Part shown: positions 30,954-32,650 of the stretch, one piece after another
Layout of the letters: each line of letters begins with the position of its first letter
Numbering within the stretch: position 1 is the first letter of the stretch
NCBI RefSeq assembly: GCF_017744555.1
Contig: NZ_JAGIBD010000004.1
Coordinates: forward strand, 1-64,000
DNA from: Cellulomonas sp.
GTDB lineage: Bacteria; Actinomycetota; Actinomycetes; Actinomycetales; Cellulomonadaceae
DNA: 64,000 nt
Direction of reading: 5' to 3'
Position numbers and translations under genes: made by a program
The notes under the pieces: model-generated
Seen by the model: the letters and a program-made list of their open reading frames with translations, nothing else
Database searches by the model: none
What the model was told of the DNA's origin: nothing

Positions 30954-31238
30954 TCAGTCCGTGGCCGTCACCCGCATGACCGTGAGCTGCTCGTGGATCC
31001 GCACCCGCAGCGCCTCGGGCGCGACCTCCTGGCAGCCACGCTTCACGAGGTGCTTCACGACGACGTCCACGTCGTACTCCTCGAGGCAGCCCCGGCACTC
31101 GGCGAGGTGCGTGCGCACCGTCTGGGCGTCGAGCTCGGGGAGCTCGGAGTCGAGGTACTCCCACAGGCGGTCCAGCGCGTCGGTGCAGTTGTTCCCGCAG
31201 CCGCCGGCGTGCGCGGCCGGCTCCTCCCACTCGCTCAT
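30954..31238 (-). CDS. rsrA: Redox-sensing anti-sigma factor RsrA
   Basis: A 94-residue zinc-containing anti-sigma factor that holds SigR under reducing conditions and releases it on disulfide formation. The ZAS motif H-x3-C-x2-C is present as HLAECRGC, with further cysteines near the N-terminus ([11 protein letters not shown]) and a late one (RGCQE). The length suits RsrA of mycothiol-producing actinobacteria. Its ATG overlaps the sigR stop (ATGA), keeping sigma and anti-sigma synthesis coupled. Confidence 0.93.
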
Positions 31239-31861
31239 CGAGCACCCTCCGGTGCGGTCGGCGCCGAGGCGACCAGGCCACGACCACGCGCGTAGTCCGT
31301 GAGCATCTCGCGCAGCTGCGCGCGGCCACGGTGAAGCCGGGACATCACCGTCCCGATCGGCGTGCCCATGATCTCGGCGATCTCCTTGTAGGCGAAGCCC
31401 TCCACGTCGGCCAGGTACACAGCGATCCGGAACTCCTCGGGGATCCGCTGCAGGGCGTCCTTGACGTCGGAGTCGGGCAGGTGGTCGAGCGCCTCCGCCT
31501 CGGCGGACCGCAGCCCGCTCGACGTGTGCGACTCGGCCCGCGCGAGCTGCCAGTCCTCGATCTCCTCGGACCGGGACTGCTGCGGCTCCCGCTGCTTCTT
31601 GCGGTACGAGTTGATGTACGTGTTGGTGAGGATCCGGTAGAGCCAGGCCTTGAGGTTCGTCCCGGGCCGGTACTGGTGGAACGCGGCGAACGCCTTCGCG
31701 AACGTCTCCTGGACCAGGTCCTCGGCGTCCGCGGGGTTGCGCGTCATGCGCAGGGCAGCGCCGTACAGCTGGTCCAGGTAGACCAGCGCCTCGGCCTCGA
31801 ACCGCTCGGTGCGCGCCGCGTCGTCCTCGGACTCGGGGGCGCGGTTGATGTCCTCGCTCAT
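31235..31861 (-). CDS. sigR: Thiol-oxidative-stress ECF sigma factor SigR (SigH/RpoE group)
   Basis: An ECF sigma factor of 208 residues from the inner ATG. Region 2 is [27 protein letters not shown]...[22 protein letters not shown]; region 4 is [47 protein letters not shown]. It directs transcription of thioredoxin, mycothiol and proteostasis genes in relatives. The frame stays open for 47 more codons upstream to an ATG at 32002, just behind a GGAAT-N18-GTT promoter. A second, longer isoform like Streptomyces SigR' is therefore likely. Confidence 0.95.
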
Positions 31862-32002
31862 CGCACGCGAGCCTAGTCCGTCTTTCTGAGGGTCACCTGA
31901 GGGGGGCGTCCACGGGCCGAACAGCGAGTCGATCGTGGGGAGCCTCGGGTCGGTCCGCGGCTCGGGCCGGGTCTCGGGTCGCGTCAGGGCGGCGCAGCTC
32001 AT
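31862..32002 (-). other. sigR: In-frame N-terminal extension of SigR (putative SigR' isoform)
   Basis: Forty-seven codons from ATG 32002 run without a stop into the sigR ATG. The translated extension starts [15 protein letters not shown] and is Pro/Asp-rich, apparently unstructured. In Streptomyces an auto-induced promoter makes a longer, unstable SigR' with a 55-residue extension, which limits the response in time. Position, length and promoter here fit the same arrangement; that the extension is translated is inferred. Confidence 0.65.
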
Positions 32003-32011
32003 GGGGAGCAC

Positions 32012-32037
32012 AACCACGACCGGACGACGACCATTCC
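32012..32037 (-). promoter_or_regulatory. SigR-dependent promoter of sigR
   Basis: On the minus strand GGAAT (32037-32033), 18 bases, then GTT (32014-32012), an exact match to the SigR/SigH consensus GGAAT-N18/19-GTT. The predicted transcription start, near 32005, is just before the ATG of the long isoform at 32002. Confidence 0.75.
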
Positions 32038-32140
32038 CGCGACGGTGCGGCGGCCCCACCACGGCACTAGCGTGACCCGCAGGGCGTGCACCGCGCGCCG
32101 GACGACAGGCGCGCCCCGCGCGCCGGACGAGGAGAAGCCC

Positions 32141-32650
32141 GTGCTGCTGCGTCGAGTCGCCCGCTCGCTGTTCGCCTCCTGGTTCGTCTCGGAGGGCCTG
32201 GGCGTCGTCCGGCACCCCGCACCCCACGCCGCCGACGCCGCCGCCGCGCTGTCCGCGTGGCGCGCCCGCCTGCCGGAGGCGGCGATCGACGTCGTCCCGG
32301 GCGGTCTGCTGCGTCGGGAGCTCACCGACCGCCAGCTCACGACCGCCGTCCAGCTCCACGGTGCCGCCCTCGCCGGCGCCGGCCTGCTGCTCGCGCTCGG
32401 CAAGGCGCCACGCACGGCGGCCTTGCTGCTCGCTGCGCTCACGGCGCCGCTCGTCGTCGTCAACCTGCCCGACAAGCGCGCCGACGCGGGCGACCGCGTG
32501 CTGCGGCAGCAACGCCGTGACCGGCTGGTCCGGGCGCTGTCGTTCGCCGCGGGCGCCGTGATCGTCGCCGCGGACCGGGAGGGCCGTCCGGGGATCACCT
32601 GGCGGGTGCAGCACGCGCTCGAGGAGCGGGCCGCATCCGGCGACGACTGA
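32141..32650 (+). CDS. DoxX-family membrane protein
   Basis: A 169-residue protein from GTG at 32141 (GAGGAGAA just upstream). The start [20 protein letters not shown] is the usual DoxX first helix. The middle holds two further hydrophobic segments ([39 protein letters not shown]). Family members have about four helices, and a mycobacterial relative (DoxX with SodA and SseA) acts in thiol and oxidative-stress defence. Being divergent from sigR, it could belong to the same regulon, but no second GGAAT-type promoter facing it is evident. Confidence 0.75.

Follow-up and report, generated by a model that had tools for sequence, protein, structure and literature searches.

The SigR/SigR' system of Streptomyces coelicolor, the closest described counterpart of the locus examined here, was reportedly treated by Kim et al. 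in 2009. In the available part of PMC5472188, SigR' of S. coelicolor is described as unstable and the short SigR as starting at a GTC codon with a AGGAGGTG site. For Mycobacterium tuberculosis, the portion of PMC4803200 that could be accessed gives the SigH consensus as GGAAYR-N17/18-GTT.

We examined a sigR locus within a 64,000-nucleotide stretch of Cellulomonas sp. DNA (the window; contig NZ_JAGIBD010000004.1, positions 1 to 64,000), for which a first-pass annotation had proposed an in-frame extension of sigR behind a SigR promoter. The sigR gene (31235..31861, minus strand) encodes a 208-residue ECF sigma factor of the SigR/SigH type with Sigma70_r2 and r4_2 domains. In profile searches, its product scored 364.7 bits against TIGR02947 (SigH_actino; cut-off, 251.55). 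The downstream rsrA gene (30954..31238, minus strand) overlaps the sigR stop codon (31237-31235) by 4 nt. It encodes a zinc-binding anti-sigma factor with a zf-HC2 domain that scored 83.9 bits against TIGR03988 (cut-off, 62.5) and in which the HxxxCxxC zinc site reads HLAECRGC in translation. By family, zinc site and regulon motif, the two products are predicted to form an actinobacterial SigR-RsrA (SigH-RshA) thiol-stress sigma/anti-sigma pair.

The upstream promoter and SigR-type sites in the genome

Rereading of the minus strand reproduced to the base the promoter elements given in the first-pass annotation (GGAAT at 32037-32033, 18 bases, GTT at 32014-32012), which form part of a GGGAAT-N18-GTT promoter termed P2 (32012..32038, minus strand). 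Nine bases after the GTT, an ATG (32002-32000) was found as described, and 47 codons (31862..32002, minus strand) lead from it to the in-frame sigR ATG at 31861-31859. A divergent open reading frame (window positions 32045-32650, plus strand), which had no Pfam match at an E value of 0.001, adjoins P2. The strict pattern GGGAAT-N18/19-GTTG was detected six times in the 4.3-Mb genome and its reversed pattern not at all; GGAAT-N18/19-GTT was detected 22 times, compared to 3 times for the reversed control. These counts indicated that the P2 motif is more than a chance match and, together with the conserved geometry described below, supported at the sequence level the proposal of a SigR-type autoregulatory promoter upstream of sigR.

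Behind the six strict sites lay sigR itself and genes for an NADH:flavin oxidoreductase, a luciferase-like monooxygenase, a cytidine-deaminase-domain protein (read as RibD), tmRNA and an RpoD/SigA-type sigma factor, which we take to be typical SigR targets. The presence of GGAAT-N18/19-GTT before targets of the SigR type was consistent, at the level of motif and gene, with a SigR regulon. At 3 of the 21 other SigR-type sites, a start codon opening a recognised gene was located 9 to 10 nt after the GTT, in apparent agreement with the assumed position of the RNA start; these genes encode the NADH:flavin oxidoreductase, a deazaflavin-dependent oxidoreductase and a CsoR/RicR-like repressor. Several observations were made in passing. 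The CsoR/RicR-like repressor gene (L353; RicR score below the cut-off) and a deazaflavin-dependent nitroreductase family gene (L343) both lie behind SigR-type promoters with an ATG 9 nt after the GTT. The tmRNA gene (L004, 1068-1434) is situated downstream of its strict promoter, and two further SigR-type sites (L332 and L333; C33:55390, minus strand, and C33:55586, plus strand) lie ~200 bp apart on opposite strands. A ClpB-like gene was found behind a GGAAT-N19-GTT site, and its first 99 residues, the part scanned, scored far below the full-length cut-off. The genome also contains two tandem clpP pairs (L328-L331; C65 and C73), and no hit in the search for the non-degenerate pattern GGAAT-N18/19-GTT lay near either of them; the ~300 to 400 nt before each were read by eye.

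Frame and coding character of the extension

A total of 321 sigR loci were collected, with part of the matches from order and class searches taken in, and 306 were distinct after the removal of identical 300-nt stretches. The family set, representing the GTDB family of the window (Cellulomonadaceae), comprised 125 loci, namely those of genomes labelled f1 and 18 named loci assigned by organism name. A search for GGAA[TC]-N17..20-GTT within 520 nt detected the promoter in 121 of these loci (one candidate in 120 and two in one), and it was located further upstream in another 3. The last, a low-GC locus (L250), has a degenerate -35 box and retains the GTT, nine bases and an in-frame GTG. An ATG or GTG was present 8 to 10 nt after the GTT in 125/125 family loci and was in frame with sigR in 124. 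For the 121 loci whose promoter lay within 520 nt, the corresponding values were 121/121 (99 at exactly nine) and 120/121, while all 3 loci with a distant promoter had an in-frame GTG nine nt after the GTT. This spacing agreed with the earlier suggestion of an almost leaderless P2 transcript. The sole out-of-frame start after P2 was found in L163 (genome G108), whose extension is one base shorter, near a run of C as judged by eye, than that of its sister L244; either a true loss of frame or a sequencing error could account for this.

The extension ranged from 16 to 82 codons, with 39 different lengths, in a set of 120 loci selected because an in-frame start close to the promoter was followed by no stop. 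Five loci left out of this set (L054, L055, L163, L236 and L250) were examined separately, and L163 was restored for the frame count. The 3 extensions behind distant promoters had 95, 95 and 102 codons, giving an overall range of 16 to 102 codons in the 123 loci measured. Extension length differed in 41 of 60 disjoint nearest-relative pairs, and 40 of these 41 differences were divisible by three (binomial p ~ 2e-18 against an expectation of one third), the odd pair being that of L163. Start-to-start distances were used for this analysis because the gap between the GTT and the start itself varies from 8 to 10 nt; the span from the GTT to the short ATG, which was divisible by three in 30 of 42 differing pairs, was rejected as a measure of frame. 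The length of the stop-free run was also rejected as evidence: within the window, no stop interrupts this frame over 965 codons (a 964-residue open reading frame), so 47 stop-free codons alone prove nothing. As judged from the length differences and frame counts, these comparisons showed that the SigR' frame is kept by selection. An in-frame start between P2 and P1, the promoter of the short form, with no stop in between, as would be expected for a SigR' system, appeared to be a family-wide property, and the earlier proposal withstood the test of searching close relatives for stop codons in this frame.

No in-frame stops were present in 4,697 codons of the 120 loci, compared to 53 ± 7 after shuffling and to 172 and 30 when the remaining frames were read. 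These loci had been preselected as stop-free, but they make up all but one of the 121 in which the pattern lay within range. GC contents at the three codon positions were.79,.65 and.91 in the middle of the extension, with extensions of under 26 or 30 codons left out, and were flat (.73,.73 and.74) in the 90-nt stretch preceding P2. The dN/dS ratio was.56 for the extension and.02 for the SigR core, using 24 of the 60 pairs (26 fell within the limits set on distance and length, and 14 of these were of equal length). In same-length pairs, the extension had a ratio of.62 in frame and of.92 and 1.25 in the shifted frames. The first ten codons, taken together, showed scarcely more constraint than the remainder of the extension (pN/pS of.63 versus.69; 39 pairs). 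Stop counts, codon-position GC and dN/dS therefore indicated that the extension is coding and under weak constraint. An AlphaFold model built with 44 aligned family sequences gave pLDDT values of 42 to 50 for the extension and of about 85 to 96 for blocks of residues 61 to 140 (mean, 72.6; pTM, 0.39), and hence the extension is probably disordered.

P1, the short form and competing readings

The first-pass annotation had overlooked a TAGGCT box inside the extension and the lack of a good Shine-Dalgarno site at the short ATG. The box (31870..31875, minus strand) lies 8 nt before the sigR ATG and is the putative -10 element of P1. A TAnnnT hexamer was located at the same distance, exactly 14 nt, upstream of the short ATG in 125/125 family loci; this was TAGGCT in 117 and another TAnnnT in 5, with TAGGCT also found in the remaining 3, which lay beyond the first search range. 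The hexamer is preceded, 16 nt away, by a candidate -35 element, GGTGAC (31892..31897, minus strand). This corresponds to a GGTGnC-like element for which the base frequencies at -36 to -33 were G 0.91, G 0.78, T 0.63 and G 0.80 in 65 Cellulomonas-type loci. A sigma-70 promoter and terminator scan of 31700-32300 detected neither. Matches of 5 or 6 bases to AGGAGG were found before the short ATG in only 1 of 120 loci, compared to 77 of the 93 loci in which the rsrA start was counted as a control. As a TAnnnT lies at -14 and a good Shine-Dalgarno site is absent, short-form SigR also looks leaderless, and in the manner of a SigR' system it would have a separate, housekeeping-type promoter.

Before the long ATG, the base at -1 was C in 95% of the 65 Cellulomonas-type loci, in favour of the start proposed there; C is the commonest base at -1 of M. 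tuberculosis start sites in the available part of PMC3898074. Two observations modified the interpretation of the short form. The base at -1 of its ATG was G in 92% of the 65 loci, which suggests that the P1 RNA may begin one base upstream of the short ATG and so would not be strictly leaderless. Furthermore, matches of 4 of 6 bases to AGGAGG preceded the short ATG in 60/120 loci versus 20/120 in one shuffle, and internal initiation at this ATG on the P2 message is therefore possible.

The reading that we favour, with a probability of about 0.7, is that the locus produces two isoforms, SigR and SigR', and that the choice of promoter is the choice of start codon. Both promoter motifs, both start codons, the frame, the missing ribosome site and coding selection were each evident from the loci compared; the exact 5' ends, exclusive isoform output and the instability of SigR' are what we infer beyond them. 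In unstressed cells, the 5' end of the housekeeping-type P1 transcript would coincide with the ATG at 31861 or lie one or two bases away from it, and leaderless translation would yield SigR, with RsrA then made from its own ribosome site. Thiol stress would free SigR, and the SigR polymerase would use P2. The 5' end of the resulting transcript would coincide with or adjoin the ATG at 32002, and its leaderless translation would give SigR', longer by 47 residues. Since the internal ATG lacks a good Shine-Dalgarno site, this message should give little or no SigR. The extension probably makes SigR' short-lived, as in Streptomyces, and the response would be boosted and then stop. Points against this reading, besides the two observations on the short form, are the out-of-frame start of L163, the lack of SigR-pattern hits near the clpP pairs, the weak additional constraint on the first ten codons and the 34 of 120 extensions without a Cys at residues 2 to 6.

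The principal alternative, which we consider unlikely though it retains real weight, is that P2 must deliver some SigR and that the extension is tolerated ballast, with SigR' as stable as SigR and positive feedback as the only outcome. An in-frame ATG or GTG at the 5' end would then be needed because the short ATG has no ribosome site. The wide range of lengths with a divergent middle, the high dN/dS relative to the core, the weak additional constraint on the first codons and the failure to find SigR-pattern matches near the clpP operons all fit this alternative, whereas the residues at the tip of the extension do not. A Cys was present within residues 2 to 6 in 86/120 extensions (at residue 3 in 77), compared to 7 Cys in the 4,577 residues beyond residue 6; it was absent from residues 2 to 6 in 34, and 30 extensions had no Cys at all. 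The counted part of the SigR core (from residue 24, at most 180 residues) had no Cys in 125/125 loci. Arg-Pro was enriched near the tip, with 63 occurrences in 1,320 residues (positions 3 to 14) versus 22 in 1,915 in the middle. A Cys was also found within residues 2 to 9 in all 51 Streptomycetaceae-type loci (assigned by name or by label f37), at residue 6 in 48 of them, and the instability of S. coelicolor SigR' likewise argues against inert ballast. With regard to the first-pass view that the sequence of the extension need not be conserved, its length is not fixed and its middle diverges, while Cys and Arg-Pro recur near the tip.

The Cys3 codon was TGT in 45/77 cases versus 21/471 Cys codons of rsrA (p ~ 5e-29), and a preference at the RNA level near the 5' end may therefore act on this codon too. 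One possible reason for TGT at codon 3 is that a leaderless message is only weakly structured near its 5' end. A more specific role for the tip, which we regard as improbable, is that SigR' carries a redox-timed degron. While thiols are oxidised, SigR' would survive because its Cys is capped, either by mycothiol or in a disulfide that may involve RsrA; after the return to reducing conditions, a Clp-type protease would recognise the free N terminus and remove SigR'. If so, the dual leaderless layout would put a timer on every sigma molecule made under stress.

The two remaining explanations fared worse. The family-wide open frame would suit a single SigR species made from the long ATG, with the short form a habit of annotation; the invariant position of TAnnnT before the short ATG makes this very improbable, as does its recurrence elsewhere. 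Among 130 distinct loci outside the family, with Streptomycetaceae-type loci kept apart, 123 contained the promoter pattern and 108 had a TAnnnT placed exactly 14 nt ahead of an in-frame start. An in-frame start 8 to 10 nt after the GTT was present in 46 (background for an in-frame start, 452/7371 or 6% per window), and 39 loci had both features. That the frame is a product of chance in GC-rich DNA, with P2 providing an ordinary leader and SigR alone being made, draws on the rarity of stops at such a composition and on the 965-codon frame in the window, but is scarcely credible given the frame, length-change, stop and codon-position results.

Comparison with known systems

SigR' itself is already known, and the nested leaderless variant would extend the Streptomyces layout to Cellulomonadaceae. 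In the open-licence literature searched, no mention was found of nested leaderless starts tying isoform to promoter or of an isoform-specific cysteine in SigR', and no paper was found on leaderless starts in Cellulomonas or on a sigR N-terminal extension in connection with ClpP. If the dual-isoform reading is true, the locus would represent a compact hard-wiring of protein isoform to promoter in which the protein made depends solely on where the RNA starts. Annotation of sigR with a single start in Cellulomonadaceae would then miss one isoform. The extension is kept in frame, not in length, across the family, and the near-terminal Cys shared by Cellulomonadaceae and Streptomycetaceae is a testable candidate for setting the lifetime of SigR'.

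As far as the available part of its description goes, the S. coelicolor SigR/SigR' system shares with this locus a SigR-dependent upstream promoter, an in-frame ATG between p2 and p1, a longer isoform from the stress promoter and a downstream rsrA. The first-pass comparison of extension lengths, 47 versus 55 residues, stands for the 47 codons counted here, whereas the S. coelicolor extension is given as 58 in the part of PMC5472188 available. In the Streptomycetaceae-type loci, the SigR' ATG was located 42 to 104 nt after the GTT behind a GGA/AGG-type site in 51/51, such a site having been required in picking the ATG, and the -14 box was found in none of the 51. Thus, both starts are leadered in Streptomyces, whereas in Cellulomonadaceae neither appears to have a leader, and the short form starts at ATG, not GTC.

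P2 fits the M. tuberculosis SigH consensus in the accessible portion of PMC4803200. The mycobacterial leaderless mRNAs described in the available parts of PMC4633059 and PMC3898074 likewise open with an ATG or GTG, a short distance downstream of a TANNNT box; unlike in those accounts, a single reading frame here contains two nested candidates for a leaderless start. The M. tuberculosis sigE gene, in the part of PMC10027907 available, also has several promoters, one of them leaderless, and isoforms with different N termini. Its oxidative-stress isoforms are shorter, from a promoter inside the coding region, whereas the stress isoform proposed here is the longer one.
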